From Candidatus Aminicenantota bacterium (GTDB taxonomy: Bacteria > Acidobacteriota > Aminicenantia > S016-38): DNA of 64,000 nucleotides. Location: NCBI GenBank assembly GCA_027068075.1, contig JAMOUJ010000005.1, forward strand, positions 1-64,000, read 5' to 3'. Under the pieces are notes generated by a model. That model did not search any database and had not been told where the DNA came from. It saw only the letters and a list, made by a program, of their open reading frames with translations. How positions within the stretch are numbered: the first letter of the stretch is position 1; every line of letters starts with the position of its first letter. Positions 45,830 to 53,908 of the stretch are shown here, one piece after another. Position numbers and translations under genes: made by a program.

Positions 45830-47010
45830 CTTACCCCCCTTGCCAGTTCAAATATGGGAAGATAAACCGAAAGGAGCATTATACCCACCACCACCCCTAG
45901 GAAGAGAATAGTCAGGGGCTCAAGGATCCCCAGGTATCTCCTCACCTTGAACTCAAATTCCTTTTCCAGGTAATCGGCCCCCTGAAAGAGAAGTTCCGCC
46001 AGTTGACCCGAGCCCTCCCCCACCCTCACCATTTCCACCCCCAGTTCCTCCACGGCCCCGCTTTCCTCCAGGGCCCTGGAAAGGCTTTCTCCCTGGCTCA
46101 CCTTCTCCGGCACCTCCTTGAGTTTCTCCCTGAGATAGCCGTTGGGGGAAGCCTCGGCGGCGGTCCTTGCTGCCTGGACCACCGGGATACCCCCCTCCAG
46201 GAGGAAGGAAAGGGTCCTCAGGTAAAGGGCAGAGGAAATGAGAAAAATTCCCTCCCCCAGGAAGGGAACCGCCAGCTTCGCCCTCTCCACCCACATGTGA
46301 ACCGGCTTTACCCTTGGAGAATTTTTATAGCCCAGGTACAGGAGAACCAGGCCGAGGATAATGTAGGGCCAGTGGGCCTTCATGAAAGAGGAGAAGGAAA
46401 GGATGAGGAGGGTTAAGGCCGGAAGTTGAATCCGGGCCGATTTGTAAAAGGAGGCGAACCTGGGGATAACGAAGGTGGTGAGCAAAAACACCAGAAAAAA
46501 GGACACCGTTATCACCACCGTGGGATAGGTCAGCGAAGCCTTGATCTTGGAGGTAATGTCCTCCATGAAGTGGGCGTATTCCAAGTATTTCTCCAGGGTA
46601 TGGGCTATCTTCCCGCTCCTTTCCCCGGCGGCCAGGGCCGTTACGAACAGGACCCCCAGATCCCTGGTGTAGGGGCGAAAGGCCTCGGAAAGTTCCGCTC
46701 CGTCCAGTATTCTCTCCCGGGCACCGGTGATGATCTCCAGCATCCTGGGATTTTTCATCCGGGCCCCTATAATTTCCAGAATCCTCACAAAGGGAACCCC
46801 TGCCCTCACCAGGGCCAGAAACTGCTGGGTGAAGATAATCCTGTCCCTCCACTTCAACCTGGCCCGGGAGAGGGAGATTTTCTTTCTTATTTTTAATACT
46901 ACGATTCCCTTTTTCTCGTATATTTTCCGGACCTCCTCCGGATCGCTGCCCCAACATTCCTCCGTCCAAACCCTCTCCTCGGAGGCCAGTTTAACCACGA
47001 ACTTGGGCAT
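45826..47010 (-). CDS. gspF: GspF/PilC inner-membrane platform protein
   Basis: 394 residues, with the family's two repeated helical domains and three membrane segments (about 164-190, 215-235, 365-388). Repeat signatures: FTQQFLALVRAGVPFVRILE with LAAGERSGKI, and ALYLRTLSFLLEGGIPVVQA with VRVGEGSGQLAELL. It anchors the GspE ATPase. The start shares TAATG with the ridA stop. Confidence 0.94.
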   Translation of the reverse strand: MPKFVVKLASEERVWTEECWGSDPEEVRKIYEKKGIVVLKIRKKISLSRARLKWRDRIIFTQQFLALVRAGVPFVRILEIIGARMKNPRMLEIITGARERILDGAELSEAFRPYTRDLGVLFVTALAAGERSGKIAHTLEKYLEYAHFMEDITSKIKASLTYPTVVITVSFFLVFLLTTFVIPRFASFYKSARIQLPALTLLILSFSSFMKAHWPYIILGLVLLYLGYKNSPRVKPVHMWVERAKLAVPFLGEGIFLISSALYLRTLSFLLEGGIPVVQAARTAAEASPNGYLREKLKEVPEKVSQGESLSRALEESGAVEELGVEMVRVGEGSGQLAELLFQGADYLEKEFEFKVRRYLGILEPLTILFLGVVVGIMLLSVYLPIFELARGVR

Positions 47011-47408
47011 TAACCTAAGGGTTCCTCCTCCTGGCGAAGTTCTGCTATCACGGAAACCTCAATCTTCACATCCTTGGGCAGGCGGGACGCTTCAAAGATG
47101 AACCGGGCCGGAGGGTTCTCGGAAAAGAACCTTTCGTAAACCTCGTTCATTCCCTTGTATTCGCTGAGGTTGGACAGGGCCATGAAGACCATCACCACCC
47201 GGTCCAGACCGGAACCGGCGTCTTCCAGGATTGCCTTTATGTTGAGCAAAACCCTCTCCGTCTGCCTCTGAATGGGGGGGCCGCAGACATTACCCTTTTC
47301 AGGGTCAATGGGAAGTTGTCCGGAAAGAAAAATGTACTTCCCGGAAATCACGGCCTGGGAATAGGGCCCTATGGGTTTGGGCCCATTTTCCGATAAAAAA
47401 GGCTTCAT
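47010..47408 (-). CDS. ridA: RidA family enamine/imine deaminase
   Basis: 132 residues. Hydrolyses reactive 2-aminoacrylate-type imines. Motifs: PIGPYSQAVISGKYIFLSGQ at the N-terminus and PARFIFEASRLPKDVKIEV at the C-terminus, including the conserved Arg in PAR. It lies 2 bases after fbp and shares its stop with the gspF start; a metabolic gene at the head of the secretion gene run. Confidence 0.95.
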   Translation of the reverse strand: MKPFLSENGPKPIGPYSQAVISGKYIFLSGQLPIDPEKGNVCGPPIQRQTERVLLNIKAILEDAGSGLDRVVMVFMALSNLSEYKGMNEVYERFFSENPPARFIFEASRLPKDVKIEVSVIAELRQEEEPLG

Positions 47409-47410
47409 TT

Positions 47411-48415
47411 TTAACCTCCATATTTTTCCATAAACTCTGTGAAAATCTCCACATTCCTCCTGCTTCCGATGACCAGGGGAGTCCTCTGGTGCAAACTTTC
47501 CGGAACTATGTCCAGAATCCTCCTCCTTCCGTCGGTGGCCGCCCCCCCGGCCTGCTCCACTATAAAGGACAGGGGTGCCGCCTCGTAAAGCAGCCTCAAT
47601 TTACCCCGGGGATGTTTGGCATCGGCAGGATAGAAAAAGATCCCCCCCTTGAGCAGGTTACGGTGGAAATCCGCCACCAGGGAACCTATGTACCGGGCAG
47701 AATAGGGCCTGGAGGTCTCCTTATCCTCCTCCTTCAGGTAATCTACGAACTTCCTGACGGCTTCGCTCCAGCGGTTGTAATATCCCTCGTTGGTGCTGTA
47801 AATTTTCCCCTTTTCCGGGATCTTTATGTCCTGGTGGGAGAGGATGAATTCCCCCACCGAAGGGTCCAGGGTAAAGCCGTGAACCCCCTGCCCGGTGGTG
47901 TAGACCAGCATGGCGGAGGAACCGTAAATCACATAACCTGCCGCCACCAGGGCAGAACCGGGCTGGAAAAAGTCCTCCTCGGTGGCATCGCCGTCCCCAT
48001 CCTGTTTTTTCCATATGCCGAAGATGGTGCCCACGCTCACATTTACATCTATGTTGGAAGATCCGTCCAGGGGATCAAAGGCGAAAAGGTACTTGCCCCG
48101 GGGAACATCCTCGGGAATGGGTATCACCGAAGCGGTCTCCTCCGAGGCCATCCCCGCCAGGTATCCTCCCCTGCCCAGGACGCCAACGAAGGTCTTTAGA
48201 GCAAATTCATCCAGTTTCTGAACCTCTTCGCCGAAGACATTGATGGTGCCTGCGCTGCCAAGAATTTCCGCTATTCCCGCCCGGTTTACCTCCCGGTAAA
48301 CTATCTTGGAAGCGGTGGCTATGTCGCTGAATAGACTGGAAAACTCACCGGTGGCCTGGGGATATTTCCTTTGTTCTTCAATGATAAACCTTGAAAGGGT
48401 GATGTATTCCTTCAT
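47411..48415 (-). CDS. fbp: Fructose-1,6-bisphosphatase class I
   Basis: 334 residues. Gluconeogenic hydrolysis of fructose-1,6-bisphosphate. The diagnostic [20 protein letters not shown] is near 113-132, SEE metal ligands near 91-93, and the C-terminal [17 protein letters not shown] is intact. It has its own promoter and a good GGGAGG ribosome binding site, so gluconeogenesis and the downstream secretion genes may share a transcript. Confidence 0.97.
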
Positions 48416-48461: not shown

Positions 48462-49430
48462 ATCGCCCACAAGGGACCTCAGGTTCACGGGCCGTCCCCT
48501 TTCCCTGAAAAACTCTTCCAGAAGAGCAATGTAGTCCCCCACCCGTTCCCTTTCCACCACGGCCCCTATGACATCCTTCTTTCCCCCGGCGTAAAACCCC
48601 AGGGACTTGGCCCGGCGGACCAGGGGAGAAAGGTCCTCCAGGGAAGTTCTAAGGTAAAAATTGTAAAACTCCCCCTGGTACCCCACCACCATGTTTATGG
48701 ACTCCGGAAACCTGGCGAAGAGGTTACGGGTAAGGTCCGAAACTATTCGGAACCTGGTGGGGGTAAAGAGAAAGTTTAGGTCGGGAAAAACCCTCACCTT
48801 CTTTAATTCCCCCTCTATCTCCTCCTCCACCAGGGATTCCACTTGGGAAAATTCCTTTTTTTCCACCACCGAAAGGAGGGGATTCTCCAGCAAATACCTG
48901 ACCACCCCGTAAACCCTTTCCCTGTCCCCGGTTTTGTATTGAAGGTCCACCACCTTCACCGCCCGGAGAAAATCACCGAATTTTTCCCGGTAAAAAGCCC
49001 TCATTTCCTCCAGGAGCGGATGGCCCTCCTTCAGTTTAAAACCGTTGTCTCCGTAAAGCCCCAGATATTCCATGTCGTTGTGGGGAAGGGAGAACATCTC
49101 CGTGAGAACCCTGGTGTTGGAAGGGGCCTCTCTGCCCTCCAGGGTGGGATTTATAATCCTCACCCCATCCACCCTCCTGCCGTGGTGATGGTCCACCACG
49201 GTAAGGGGCCCCAGGGAATTCAAATAGAGCAGGTCCTCCTCCGGAAGGCTCATGTCCAGCAGGACCAGGGAATCCGCCCCCTTTTCCTCAATCTCCGTCC
49301 TATCCCTTTTTCCCAGAAAATAATTCCCTATTTCCGGGGTAAAATACTGGAAACTCCCGCCCTTTACCCTGGTCCACAGCACCGCAGAACCTATCCCGTC
49401 GGCATCCCAATGATGAATCACCAGTTCCAT
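48453..49430 (-). CDS. DHH-family phosphoesterase
   Basis: 325 residues from ATG 49430. An open frame extends to 49895 but that portion is antisense to the glycosyltransferase gene. N-terminal DHH domain: HHWDADGIGSA near 6-16 replaces the usual DHDADG, VLLDMSLPE carries the Asp, and VVDHHHG near 97-103 is the DHH motif itself. The C-terminal part (about 230-325) has a DHHA1-like GAVVERER region but no clear GGGH. Relatives degrade nanoRNA, cyclic dinucleotides or act as exonucleases; the substrate is open. The start lacks a ribosome binding site; TAAAAT lies 7 bases upstream. Confidence 0.82.
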   Translation of the reverse strand: MELVIHHWDADGIGSAVLWTRVKGGSFQYFTPEIGNYFLGKRDRTEIEEKGADSLVLLDMSLPEEDLLYLNSLGPLTVVDHHHGRRVDGVRIINPTLEGREAPSNTRVLTEMFSLPHNDMEYLGLYGDNGFKLKEGHPLLEEMRAFYREKFGDFLRAVKVVDLQYKTGDRERVYGVVRYLLENPLLSVVEKKEFSQVESLVEEEIEGELKKVRVFPDLNFLFTPTRFRIVSDLTRNLFARFPESINMVVGYQGEFYNFYLRTSLEDLSPLVRRAKSLGFYAGGKKDVIGAVVERERVGDYIALLEEFFRERGRPVNLRSLVGDLS

Positions 49431-49437
49431 AAAAAGG

Positions 49438-49462
49438 ATTTTACCTGAAAATAGGGTAAAAT
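49438..49462. promoter_or_regulatory. Symmetrical divergent promoter for DHH gene and glycosyltransferase operon
   Basis: A perfect 8-base inverted repeat, ATTTTACC (49438-49445) and GGTAAAAT (49455-49462), with a 9-base centre. Each arm contains TAAAAT reading outward, and each lies 7 bases from the start codon on its side (49430 minus, 49470 plus). It may act as paired -10 elements, an operator, or both. No ribosome binding site is present on either side. Confidence 0.55.
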
Positions 49463-49469
49463 AGAACGG

Positions 49470-50207
49470 ATGGGAATTTCCGCAGTGATAATAACCCTGA
49501 ACGAGGAGCGGAGGCTTCCCCGCCTGCTCCGCAGCCTTGACTTCGTGGACGAAATAGTGGTGGTGGACGCCTTCTCCCGGGATGGAACCGCCGAAGTGGC
49601 CAGATCCCTGGGAGCCCGGGTTTACAAAAGGGAGTGGGAGGGCTACGCTTCCCAGAGAAACTTCGCCCTTCAGAAGGCAACTCACCCCTGGGTCCTTTCC
49701 CTGGACGCCGACGAGGTGGTGAGTCCCGAACTCAAGGCGGAAATTCTCTCCCTGGACTTTTCCGCCGACGGATATCTCGTCAGAAGGGAAACCTACTTCG
49801 CCGGAAAGCCCATGCACTGTTGCGGGTGGTGGCCCGACTGGGGGATCCGCCTGTTCAAAAAGGAGAAGGCCCGATGGGAGGGGGAATGGGTCCACGAATC
49901 CCTGGTCTTCCAGGGAAGAACGGGGAAGTTAAGGGGAAAGGTCCTACATTACCCCTACGAAAATTCCAGGGAGTTATTCCGTCGCATGGAAAAATACGCC
50001 GAACTCTGGGCGGAGAAGGAAAAACACCGGGAGCCTTCCTGGGTTAAGGTCTGCACAGAACCGGTGGGAACCTTTCTTTCCTCCTACCTGCTAAAAGGGG
50101 GATTTCTGGCAGGATGGCGGGGATTCACCGTGTCCTTTGCCCAGGCCTATTATTCTTTTTTAAAATATCTTCTCGTGAAGGAGGGAAAATGGACATTGAA
50201 AAAATAA
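49470..50207 (+). CDS. Glycosyltransferase family 2 (KdtX/WaaE-like)
   Basis: 245 residues, GT-A fold. The N-terminus ISAVIITLNEERRLPRLLRS, VDAFSRDGT and the metal-binding SLDADE (near 76-81) are typical. The later WWPDWGIRLFKK, EWVHE and HYPYENSRELFRRMEKYA resemble the KdtX/WaaE group that adds glucose or heptose to the LPS core. First gene of a five-gene glycan operon; a leaderless start is likely (TAAAAT 7 bases upstream, no ribosome binding site). Confidence 0.9.
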   Translation: MGISAVIITLNEERRLPRLLRSLDFVDEIVVVDAFSRDGTAEVARSLGARVYKREWEGYASQRNFALQKATHPWVLSLDADEVVSPELKAEILSLDFSADGYLVRRETYFAGKPMHCCGWWPDWGIRLFKKEKARWEGEWVHESLVFQGRTGKLRGKVLHYPYENSRELFRRMEKYAELWAEKEKHREPSWVKVCTEPVGTFLSSYLLKGGFLAGWRGFTVSFAQAYYSFLKYLLVKEGKWTLKK

Positions 50208-50635
50208 TGGAAGAGGCCCGAAGGAGAATTGAGGAGAAAAAGAAAAAGGGTTATTTCACCGACGAGGAAATCCGGGACATAGAGGAGATGGAATTGAAGA
50301 TTCTCCCGGACGAAGCGGAGGTTCGCTCCTTCTACGAACCCCACATTTTCCAGGAAGAATACCATCCTCCCCGGGGGCTGAAGAAGGTGATAAGGGACCT
50401 GTTCAGGGAAAAATTCCTCAGGCTATTCTTCTTCTTCATGAGACCCCTTCTCTCCCCGGAAAAAATAGGTCAGGCGACGGAATACATAAGGATCCTTCAC
50501 AACTTATCCCACAACCTGGTAACGGAACTGTCCAAGCAGAGGGTTAAAACCCTGGAATTGGAGGCCCGGGTGAAGGCCCTGGAGGAAAAACTTGAAATTC
50601 TTCAGAGGAGAATAAGAATATACGAAGGCAAATGA
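50189..50635 (+). CDS. Small coiled-coil protein of the glycan operon
   Basis: 148 residues from ATG 50189 (GGAGGG upstream), overlapping the GT2 gene by 19 bases. Highly charged helix at 1-35 (IMEEARRRIEEKKKKG), then IRDIEEMELKILPDEAEV. A hydrophobic basic stretch near 75-90 (FLRLFFFFMRPLL) may contact the membrane, and a C-terminal coiled coil (about 100-148) follows. No enzyme motif. It may be a scaffold or chain-length factor; unknown. Confidence 0.72.
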   Translation: MDIEKIMEEARRRIEEKKKKGYFTDEEIRDIEEMELKILPDEAEVRSFYEPHIFQEEYHPPRGLKKVIRDLFREKFLRLFFFFMRPLLSPEKIGQATEYIRILHNLSHNLVTELSKQRVKTLELEARVKALEEKLEILQRRIRIYEGK

Positions 50636-51777
50636 AAGCAGCCATCGTGGTTCAAAGATACGGGCTTAGAATAGCCGGAGGGGCGGAATACCACGCCCGC
50701 CTGGTGGCCGAACACATGAGAAAACATTGGGATGTGGAGGTTCTCACCACCGACGCCGAGGACTATGTCCGGTGGAAAAGGGGAAATTTCCCTGCCAAAG
50801 AGGTGTTGAACGGGGTAAAAATAAGACGGTTCCCTGTGGAGAAGGAGAGGGACCTGTTCAGGTTCGCCCGTCTTCAGGAAAAACTCCAGAGCCAGGAACA
50901 CACCCCCAGGGATGAGGAGGAGTGGATAGACGAAGAGGGGCCCTACGCCCCAGCCCTCATAAAATACATAAGAAACCACCGGGAAGATTACGACCTCTTC
51001 GTTTTCTTTTCCTACAGGTATTACCAGACCCTGAGGGGAATTCCCCAGGCAGAGGGCAAGGCCCTTCTGGTCCCCACGGCGGAACACGACCCCGTCCTCT
51101 ACTTCCCCCTGGCCCGCAGGACCTTCAGAAAGGCCACGGGCTTTCTGTACAACTCCCACGAGGAAAAGGAACTTATTGAAACCATCCACGGGATCTCCGC
51201 TCCCCATGTGGTGGTGGGGGTGGGCATCAAGGAAATGAACCCTGCGGGGGGTAAGTTTTCTCGTTTTTCCCCATACATGCTTTACATCGGGAGAATAGAC
51301 CGGAACAAGGGGGCAGAAAGGCTTTTTTCGTATTACTTGCACTACAAGAGAAAACATCCCGGCCTGAAACTTCTCCTGGTGGGGAAGCCCGTTCTTCCTT
51401 TACCCAAGGACCCGGACATAATCCACCTGGGCTTCCTTCCGGAGGAAGAGAAGTGGGAAGCCCTGGCGGATGCCCTTTTTCTGGTAAATCCCTCCCACCT
51501 GGAAAGCCTGTCCATGATCCTCCTGGAGGCCTGGTCCATAGCCAGGCCGGTGCTGGTCTACGGGGGATGCGAGGTCCTTCAAGGGCAAGTAAAAAGAAGC
51601 GGTGGAGGGCTCTACTTCAACAACTACTACGAATTTGAGGAAGCCGTGGAGATACTCCGCTCCGACGAAGTCCTCCGGCGGAGGATGGGGGAGGCGGGTC
51701 GGGCCTATTACCAGGAAAACTACCGCTGGGATGTAATAGAGGAGAAGTATCTGAAGTTGGCGGAGGAGGTCCTGTGA
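50632..51777 (+). CDS. Glycosyltransferase family 4
   Basis: 381 residues, GT-B fold. The N-terminus has QRYGLRIAGGAEYHARLVAE, the GGAE donor-loop pattern of WaaG-like enzymes. The C-terminal half has YIGRIDRNKGAERL and the E-x7-E catalytic motif in HLESLSMILLEAWS. Sugar specificity unknown. Overlaps its neighbours by 4 bases on each side. Confidence 0.9.
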   Translation: MKAAIVVQRYGLRIAGGAEYHARLVAEHMRKHWDVEVLTTDAEDYVRWKRGNFPAKEVLNGVKIRRFPVEKERDLFRFARLQEKLQSQEHTPRDEEEWIDEEGPYAPALIKYIRNHREDYDLFVFFSYRYYQTLRGIPQAEGKALLVPTAEHDPVLYFPLARRTFRKATGFLYNSHEEKELIETIHGISAPHVVVGVGIKEMNPAGGKFSRFSPYMLYIGRIDRNKGAERLFSYYLHYKRKHPGLKLLLVGKPVLPLPKDPDIIHLGFLPEEEKWEALADALFLVNPSHLESLSMILLEAWSIARPVLVYGGCEVLQGQVKRSGGGLYFNNYYEFEEAVEILRSDEVLRRRMGEAGRAYYQENYRWDVIEEKYLKLAEEVL

Positions 51778-52841
51778 AGGTTCACCAGATGCTTCCCACC
51801 TTCAGTTACGGAGACGCCATAGGAAATCACACCCTGGCCATAAGGGATGCCCTGAGAAAGGCGGGATACACTTCCGAGATCTTCGCCTACAACCACGATC
51901 CCAGGCTGGCGGGGCAGGTGAGGTATTTTGCAGAACTGGAGGAAGAAATGGGCCCCGACGACATTCTCATCTACCACTATTCCCTCTCGTCTCCCCTCTC
52001 CCTACTTTACATGGAACTTAAAAGCAAGAAAATCCTCATCTACCACAACATAACCCCCCACCACTTCTTTTACGATACCAACCTGGCCCTGGCCAAGGAA
52101 TGCTACATGGGAAGGAGGTTTCTTCCGGAATTGGCCCCCCACACCCACCTGGCCCTGGGAGATTCCTCCTACAACGAAGAGGAACTCAAGGAAGCGGGTT
52201 TCAAAAAAACCGGGGTCCTGCCCATAATGATAGATTTTGAAAGGCTGTCTTCTCCCCCCAGTCCCTCCTTTTCCAGCGCCTTCAAGGACGGGAAAAAGAA
52301 TTTTCTCTTCGTGGGTCGGGTAATCAACAACAAGAAATTTGAGGATCTGATAAAGGTTTTCCATTATTATCAGCGCTACTTCAACCCCGGAAGCCGGCTT
52401 ATCCTGGCGGGGAATTATTCGGGATTTGAAAGGTATTACATGGCCCTCTGGGAACTTGCCGGCAGGTTGGGGGTTAAAAACCTGGTCTTTACCGGCCATG
52501 TGAGTTTTCGGGAACTGCTTTCCCTCTACAGAACGGCGGACCTTTTCCTGTGCATGAGCGAACACGAGGGCTTTTGTGTGCCCCTGGTGGAGGCCTTCTT
52601 CTTTAACCTGCCGGCCTTGGCCTACCGGTGCTGCGCCGTGGAGGAGACGGCCAACGGCGGAGGGATCCTCTTTGAAAAAAAGGACTTCCCCCTGATAGCC
52701 GCCACGGCTCACCAGGTCCTGACGGACCGAGACCTCAGGGAAAGGGTCCTGGAGAGCCAGAAAAGGGCCCTGAAAAGATACGAAAGGAAGGCCATTGAGG
52801 CCACCCTTTTGAACTTCGTGAAGGAGGTGGAGGAACTGTGA
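51774..52841 (+). CDS. Glycosyltransferase family 4 (first of a tandem pair)
   Basis: 355 residues; GTG start 51774 overlaps the previous stop as GTGA. The N-terminus MKVHQMLPTFSYGDAIGNHT and IYHNITPHHFF are shared with the next gene. The GT-B C-terminal half has FVGRVINNKKFEDLIK and the E-x7-E motif SEHEGFCVPLVEAF. Sugar specificity unknown. Tandem duplicate of the gene at 52838. Confidence 0.92.
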   Translation: MKVHQMLPTFSYGDAIGNHTLAIRDALRKAGYTSEIFAYNHDPRLAGQVRYFAELEEEMGPDDILIYHYSLSSPLSLLYMELKSKKILIYHNITPHHFFYDTNLALAKECYMGRRFLPELAPHTHLALGDSSYNEEELKEAGFKKTGVLPIMIDFERLSSPPSPSFSSAFKDGKKNFLFVGRVINNKKFEDLIKVFHYYQRYFNPGSRLILAGNYSGFERYYMALWELAGRLGVKNLVFTGHVSFRELLSLYRTADLFLCMSEHEGFCVPLVEAFFFNLPALAYRCCAVEETANGGGILFEKKDFPLIAATAHQVLTDRDLRERVLESQKRALKRYERKAIEATLLNFVKEVEEL

Positions 52842-53908
52842 GGATCGTTCAACTCCTTCCAGCCTTTTCCACCGGAGATGCCATCGGAGAAAACTCCCTG
52901 GCCCTGGCCAGGCACTTCAAGGAAAGGGGACACGAAGCCTGGATTGAATCCCCGGACATAAAAACCCCCCATCCCCTGGTCAGGGAATTGAACCTCCGGG
53001 GCCTATCCTCCCTGGGACCCGGGGATGCGGTGATTTACCACATAGCGGTGGCCACCCCCTACGCCAGGGATTTTCTTTCCCTGAAGGCCAGGAAGGTGGT
53101 GATAAACCACAACATAACCCCTCCGGAATTTTACAGGCCCTTTTCCGAGGAAATAGCCGGCCTCCTGGAAGCCACCCTGGAGGAACTTCGCTTCTTCGTT
53201 GAAAACCGGGACAAAATTTCCCTCTTCGTGGGGGATTCCCACTTTAACTCCAGGATGATTGAGGAAATGGGGGCCCCGGCGGTGACGGTTCCCCTGGCCA
53301 TAAACTGGGAAAGGTTCAATGGACCCTTCAACCCCTACTTCATGGGGATCTTTCAGGACCACAAGGTAAACTTCCTCTTCGTAGGCAGGGTGGTCCCCAA
53401 CAAAAGAATAGAGGACCTCATCAAATTCGCCTTCTACTACAAGGAGATGATATCGCCGGCCATGAGGCTCATCATCGCCGGAAACCACAGGGCCCTTCCC
53501 CGTTATACCTTCTCCCTTATGGACCTGGCCCACAGGTTCCACCTTTCCCGGGACGAAGTGGTTTTTACCGGGTGGGTGGAGGAGGATGAACTGAGGGGCC
53601 TATACAGGACAGCCCACCTCTTCGTCTCCGCCAGCGAACACGAGGGCTTCGGAGCCCCCTTCCTGGAGGCCTTCCACTACTCCCTTCCGGTGCTGGCCTT
53701 CAGGGCCGGGGCGGTGCCCGAAACCGTTGGAAGGGGAGGGATAATTCTGGATACGAAAAACCCGGCCCTGTGGGGAGAAACGGCCTACACCATGGTTTCC
53801 AACGAGGAATTGAGGGAGAAACTCCTGAGGGAAGGCCAGAGGCAGTTGGAATACTTCAAGTCCCTCCGCAGCCCGGAGAAATTGCTCAACCTAATAGAAT
53901 CCCTCTAA
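52838..53908 (+). CDS. Glycosyltransferase family 4 (second of a tandem pair)
   Basis: 356 residues; GTG start 52838 in a GTGA overlap. Paralogue of the preceding gene: IVQLLPAFSTGDAIGENSLA, INHNITPPEFY, FVGRVVPNKRIEDLIKF, then SEHEGFGAPFLEAF (E-x7-E). Last gene of the operon. Its TAA stop overlaps the comF stop on the other strand by CTAA, with no terminator visible. Confidence 0.92.
   Translation: MRIVQLLPAFSTGDAIGENSLALARHFKERGHEAWIESPDIKTPHPLVRELNLRGLSSLGPGDAVIYHIAVATPYARDFLSLKARKVVINHNITPPEFYRPFSEEIAGLLEATLEELRFFVENRDKISLFVGDSHFNSRMIEEMGAPAVTVPLAINWERFNGPFNPYFMGIFQDHKVNFLFVGRVVPNKRIEDLIKFAFYYKEMISPAMRLIIAGNHRALPRYTFSLMDLAHRFHLSRDEVVFTGWVEEDELRGLYRTAHLFVSASEHEGFGAPFLEAFHYSLPVLAFRAGAVPETVGRGGIILDTKNPALWGETAYTMVSNEELREKLLREGQRQLEYFKSLRSPEKLLNLIESL

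Follow-up and report, generated by a model that had tools for sequence, protein, structure and literature searches.

Back-to-back leaderless promoters as the probable basis of an inverted repeat between a DHH-family phosphoesterase gene and a glycosyltransferase operon in an Aminicenantes genome

The short dyad between a DHH-family phosphoesterase gene and a divergent glycosyltransferase operon most probably consists of two separate sigma70-type leaderless promoters placed back to back and probably mutually exclusive, rather than of one operator or shared element, a reading to which we assign a probability of roughly 85%. The main-sigma RNA polymerase would recognize each GG-TAAAAT -10 box separately, and each box would set transcription to start at, or one base before, its own ATG, so that both messages are predicted to be leaderless. 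Since a polymerase footprint on one box would cover the other, the two starts would be expected to exclude each other and to be otherwise independent. The site adds an ordinary example to a class that has been described already, that of leaderless promoters. What exceeds chance expectation is that two promoter-like boxes are placed at start codons; the dyad as such does not.

The divergent gap and its conservation

In the 64,000-nucleotide stretch of DNA that was analysed (the window), the two genes are separated by 39 bases, and the arms of the dyad, ATTTTACC and GGTAAAAT, are exact inverted copies of each other with nine bases between them (Table 1). Each arm carries an outward TAAAAT seven bases from the ATG that it faces. 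The initial annotation was accurate on all of these points; its description of the element as perfectly symmetrical holds for the arms and not for the 25 bases as a whole, of which 18 are unchanged on reverse complementation. The DHH gene starts with an ATG whose reverse complement, CAT, occupies 49428-49430, and the glycosyltransferase ATG lies at 49470; judging from box spacing, transcription would be predicted to start at 49430 on the minus strand and at 49470 on the plus strand, at or within one base. The boxes are separated by 13 bases without overlap, with a distance of 40 bases from one predicted start to the other. None of the tested Shine-Dalgarno 4-mers is present in the stretches that precede the two start codons (AGAACGG and CCTTTTT).

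Table 1. Features of the divergent site, its flanking genes and related sites (window positions unless a contig or locus is given; G000 is the genome that contains the window)
Feature	Position	Strand	Remarks
Left arm ATTTTACC (reversed = GGTAAAAT)	49438-49445	-	-10 box TAAAAT (49443-49438) after GG; for DHH gene
Right arm GGTAAAAT	49455-49462	+	-10 box TAAAAT (49457-49462) after GG; for glycosyltransferase operon
Spacer between arms, 9 bases	49446-49454		Asymmetrical; not conserved in G001, G002
Divergent intergenic region, 39 bases	49431-49469		DHH gene / glycosyltransferase gene
DHH-family phosphoesterase, 325 aa	48453-49430	-	Pfam PF01368, 30.1 bits vs. cut-off 28.1
Class 1 fructose-bisphosphatase	47411-48415	-	Downstream of DHH gene
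Rid-family protein	47010-47408	-	Downstream of DHH gene
Family 2 glycosyltransferase, 245 aa	49470-50207	+	Pfam PF00535; first gene of rightward run
148-aa protein	50189-50635	+	Overlaps preceding gene; no Pfam or NCBIfam match
Three family-1-type glycosyltransferases	50632-51777, 51774-52841, 52838-53908	+	Pfam PF00534 in all three
Second exact dyad copy, 9-base spacer	G000 C5:420120-420144		Beside cobalamin riboswitch
Cobalamin riboswitch match	L015:1333-1504	-
PTPS-like/MerR-like gap	G000 C5:296905-296941 (L027)		Orthologues L063-L065
PFK-like/Mpl-like gap, 18 bases	G000 C5:263413-263430 (L025)		Orthologues L046-L048
Genes flanking PFK/Mpl gap	C5 262225-263412, 263431-264804	-, +	Divergent

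Only the N-terminal DHH domain of the leftward protein was recognized, and no NCBIfam family matched it. To the right, the overlapping ends of the glycosyltransferase genes between 50632 and 53908 suggest that these probably form one operon with the gene at 49470. A Pfam and NCBIfam scan of eight flanking proteins revealed no regulator family, the 148-residue protein matching nothing at all.

The site was compared with three genomes of the same genus (G001, G002, and G003) and three of the same family (G004, G005, and G006). In all four genus genomes, including the host, TAAAAT is kept on the DHH side at 6-7 bases from the ATG and on the glycosyltransferase side at 7 bases, and much of the rest of the gap has diverged. 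Box-to-box distances are 13, 13, 12, and 12 bases, and the two bases before the right box read GG, GT, TG, and TG. Hence, where the initial annotation had made conservation of the arms a check on its proposal, the hexamers are kept and the GG/CC bases of each arm are not. In the family genomes the DHH gene keeps, as judged by eye, ATTTTA (G005 and G006) or ATTCTA (G004; equivalent to TAGAAT) at 6 bases. The glycosyltransferase is not its divergent neighbor in any of these three; no match to it was found at 1e-40 in G005 or G006, and in G004 it lies on another contig, where it keeps TAAAAT 8 bases from its ATG. Each gene thus keeps its own box when the two are unlinked, which argues for the independence of the boxes. 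In class relatives, no box was found upstream of the DHH gene in G007, G018, or G021 (the matches in G012 and G015 were partial and were left out of the box reading), nor upstream of the glycosyltransferase in three genomes (L043-L045).

Other divergent pairs of the genus were collected with this one in an orthologue table (five pairs in four genomes, 20 rows). The names PFK, Mpl, PTPS, MerR, PP2C, MPG, DASS, ArgS, ALDH, and LPG, used below for their genes, are presumptive, being assigned by inspection of the translated sequences. Distances from a box to its own start codon are 6-7 bases on the left in all 20 rows and 6-9 bases on the right in the 19 rows whose start is sound. This constancy is in part a product of the method, which took the best-matching hexamer within 4-10 bases and resolved ties toward about 6.6. 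Two rows were not used for the right-box distances: the ArgS row of G001, in which the right start is wrong, and an extra G004 row with TCAAAT, a poor match, as its right box. Box-to-box distance across the five pairs ranges from overlap up to +39 bases.

A predicted leaderless promoter class and the probable origin of the symmetry

The wider occurrence of such boxes was assessed in a 464-kb sample of the same genome containing 442 genes, with starts taken from a simple hexamer-based gene finder. Among 74 divergent genes, 24 have TAN[AT]NT at 6-7 bases before the start, where other distances predict 4.6 (mean of 2.32 per position at distances 12-39). The corresponding figures are 8 of 75 for tandem genes with a gap of at least 40 bases (mean of 0.89 per position at 12-39) and 11 of 268 for inner genes, which need no promoter and show a small peak too (mean of 1.93 per position). 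The peak recurs in the genus relative G003, at 16 of 60 divergent genes, and in the family relative G004, at 21 of 76. It is absent in the class relative G037 (2 of 96 divergent genes) and in E. coli K-12 (1 of 40), controls for which the same gene finder had a lower yield per kb (266 genes in 362 kb and 153 genes in 200 kb, respectively).

When the box was allowed at 5-9 bases, 38 of 149 first genes formed a leaderless-like set, some of which will be chance matches given that tolerance (about 2.3 per position in divergent genes). A Shine-Dalgarno 4-mer precedes 3 of these 38 genes; the count is 45 of 111 for the other first genes and 157 of 268 for inner genes. GG stands directly before the box in 15 of the 38 promoters, and the exact 8-mer GGTAAAAT is present in 11, including the two described here; the GG preference is weaker in the relatives (7 of 26 in G003 and 5 of 33 in G004). 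Boxes at -35 are nearly absent (1 of 38). The overall pattern points to frequent leaderless initiation in this Aminicenantes family, from a TA[AT]AAT box at the start codon; for this lineage, a search of an open library of papers returned none on leaderless genes or Shine-Dalgarno sequences.

Leaderless bacterial genes have been reported to carry a -10 signal, TANNNT, some 12 bp ahead of the start codon, and were present in all three Acidobacteria genomes counted, at an average of 13.3% (Zheng et al., 2011, PMC3160421). According to the same survey, medium-GC genomes show TAtaaT, and a TG peak is seen in several low-GC genomes. The promoters described here resemble that class as it is outlined there, with the first T of the box 12-13 bases before the start and few Shine-Dalgarno sequences; box distance, lack of a Shine-Dalgarno sequence, and conservation with the gene in relatives all agree with the two boxes belonging to it. 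They differ in that GG often precedes the box in this genome, and in their lineage, an Aminicenantes family.

This promoter class most likely also accounts for the symmetry of the site. GGTAAAAT is the commonest promoter 8-mer of the 464-kb sample, and both arms are copies of it; the exact symmetry would follow from the agreement of each box with the promoter consensus that is common in the genome. Two random leaderless 8-mers are identical with a probability of 0.071 (the window pair being left out), and the one exact dyad among six double-box pairs is not far from the 0.43 expected. Divergent pairs boxed on both sides number 6 of 37 in the host, vs. 6.08 expected if the two sides were independent, 2 of 30 in G003 (3.01 expected), and 6 of 38 in G004 (4.11 expected). 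One of the six pairs in the host, LPG/ALDH, was included in this count and left out of the orthologue table, since its relatives show a Shine-Dalgarno sequence and a downstream ATG for ALDH; the box call on its right side is probably wrong. The 8-mer is frequent, with 54 occurrences on both strands of the 464 kb, so most copies need not be promoters. A copy is also found inside the DHH coding sequence (window 49338-49345), at the same place in G001 and G002.

Alternative readings of the dyad

The initial annotation had also proposed that a dimeric regulator binds the inverted arms as one operator and switches both genes, which we consider improbable. Exact arms in a 39-base divergent gap speak for such an operator, and a genome-wide search, suggested along with the proposal, did find a further copy: ATTTTACC-N5..15-GGTAAAAT is present at two sites in the whole genome of the host (1,906,319 bases), with the same 9-base spacer at the second. 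GGTAWAAT pairs no more than 60 bases apart likewise number two in 464 kb, both back to back with a spacer of 9, none being head-to-head or tandem. The search found no copy in the six genus and family relatives, leaving the exact dyad in one of seven genomes, and with a single further genomic copy and none in these relatives the dyad was rejected as a regulon marker. Moreover, at orthologous sites the GG/CC bases, the flanks, and the spacing all vary, so that no dyad is conserved as a unit, each arm is in itself a common promoter 8-mer, and no regulator family was recognized among the eight flanking proteins, one of which (148 residues) had no match. Taken together, the 16 fixed bases of the dyad are rarer than an exact 8-bp inverted repeat as such: in the window, an exact match to them occurs at the given site alone; with up to three mismatches there are two matches vs. 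0.43 expected, a number reached by 3 of 100 shuffles.

The second copy sits between a cobalamin riboswitch on the minus strand, with what we take to be a receptor-like gene, and a presumed FtsK-like gene, both named from their translations. As called, the FtsK-like gene starts at a GTG with a TATAAT of its own 6 bases ahead, and hence the right arm of this copy lies away from that start codon. The left arm could be the riboswitch promoter, in which case the Rfam match, whose first 4 bases the copy overlaps, would begin slightly upstream of the expected start site.

The stretch between the boxes offers a further point in favor of an operator. In G004, the unlinked DHH (L007) and glycosyltransferase (L041) promoters share the ten-base CCCCTATTTT, located 5 bases upstream of the -10 box, and AAAATAGGGG is present at both; a shorter form of the CCCCTATTTT stretch lies between the boxes in the host and in G003. 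At least ten bases are shared by 142 of 11,026 random promoter pairs (1.3%), and among 149 other G004 upstream regions, one shares at least ten bases with the DHH region and one with the glycosyltransferase region. A common operator could, as a weak alternative account, explain this sharing. The central motif CCNNAAAATAGGG was tried as the operator and rejected, as it shows no excess over its reversed control in any of the seven genomes (5 vs. 18 in the host; equal counts in G005); the orthologous gaps of G001 and G002 lack it.

Divergent pairs under one dimeric regulator are known. In Corynebacterium glutamicum, crtR and crtE form a divergent pair controlled by the MarR-type regulator CrtR, and crtR is reported to be leaderless (PMC5401885). 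As in that system, the genes here are divergent, with inverted repeats in the gap that overlap the promoter boxes. Unlike crtR/crtE as presented in that report, the dyad has no recognized regulator gene next to it, and outside the two hexamers the repeat is not conserved.

It is very unlikely that the site works as a single bidirectional promoter, in which one shared, near-symmetrical -10 element is used both ways. Bidirectional promoters have been described as having one shared -10 element and starts mostly 18 bp apart, with spacings of 10 and 23 also occurring (Warman et al., 2026, PMC12825309). In E. coli, their basal activity was reported to be too low for competition, which occurs on activation only (PMC12825309). 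The present site is like the promoters outlined in these studies (PMC12825309; Middlemiss et al., 2023, PMC10268837) in its outward transcription from a short region and its symmetrical -10 sequences, and in the prediction that one binding event excludes the other; the two genes are predicted to be leaderless with starts on opposite strands, and overlapping boxes do exist in the genus (by 2 bases at PFK/Mpl and by 4 at PTPS/MerR in two genomes). It differs from them in having two separate -10 boxes, with the box and start distances given above; boxes without overlap do not agree with a single shared -10 element. The suggestion that one element drives both genes lacks support for further reasons: spacing and CC/GG bases vary, the unlinked genes of G004 keep their own boxes, and boxes on the two sides of divergent gaps pair as if independent.

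The least probable explanation is a chance inverted repeat without function. Exact 8-bp inverted repeats with spacers of 0-20 abound in DNA of this kind (the window has 52, vs. a mean of 42 and range of 30-67 in 20 simulated windows), which makes the dyad as a repeat the unremarkable part. Both hexamers, though, are kept at the start codons in all four genus genomes in a gap that has otherwise largely diverged, and their distance from the start is that of the positional peak in the genome sample. Two outward leaderless promoters, the leaderless transcripts having been suggested in the initial annotation, are well supported on computational grounds, by the peak in 464 kb and by the retention of the boxes in 4 of 4 genus genomes.

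Other divergent pairs and what the promoters mean for the family

Box spacing varies among the other divergent pairs. The boxes of PP2C/MPG are 20 or 32 bases apart in the genus genomes, and those of DASS/ArgS 35-39 bases apart in the three genus genomes with a sound right start. The PTPS/MerR boxes are separated by 12 bases in the host and G003, where the gap measures 37 or 36 bases, but overlap by 4 in the 21-base gap of G001 and G002, suggesting that promoters may have shifted relative to each other within one genus. PFK/Mpl is the least ordinary divergent case of the genome. Its gap is 18 bases long in the host and 15 in G001 and G002, with TATAAT-like boxes in crossed order that overlap by 2 bases. 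Its predicted starts are 19 bases apart, which brings it nearer than the DHH/glycosyltransferase site to the bidirectional promoters described in PMC12825309. The PFK-like and Mpl-like genes, apparently leaderless, may share one bidirectional promoter. The family genomes G006 and G004 have a different sequence before PFK, with the reverse of a Shine-Dalgarno sequence (CACCTCC and CAACCTCC).

A broader reading, which we offer as speculation and regard as doubtful, joins these cases. Short divergent gaps in this Aminicenantes family might act as compact two-way switches, with two leaderless promoters under one RNA polymerase footprint and each message made only when the other is not. A regulator may in addition bind AAAATAGGG between the DHH and glycosyltransferase boxes, a sequence retained as AAAATAGGGG, at 5 bases from the box, by both of the unlinked genes in G004. 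PFK/Mpl (15-18 bases) would be the extreme form: a single bidirectional promoter with overlapping boxes, bounded at either end by a start codon.

In the preferred reading, that of two separate promoters, what appeared to be a special symmetrical switch is explained as the meeting of two standard promoters. The 15-18-base PFK/Mpl gap would offer a clean natural case for two leaderless genes sharing one overlapping promoter. Finally, leaderless initiation, if as common in this Aminicenantes family as the genome sample indicates, bears on the annotation of gene starts there.
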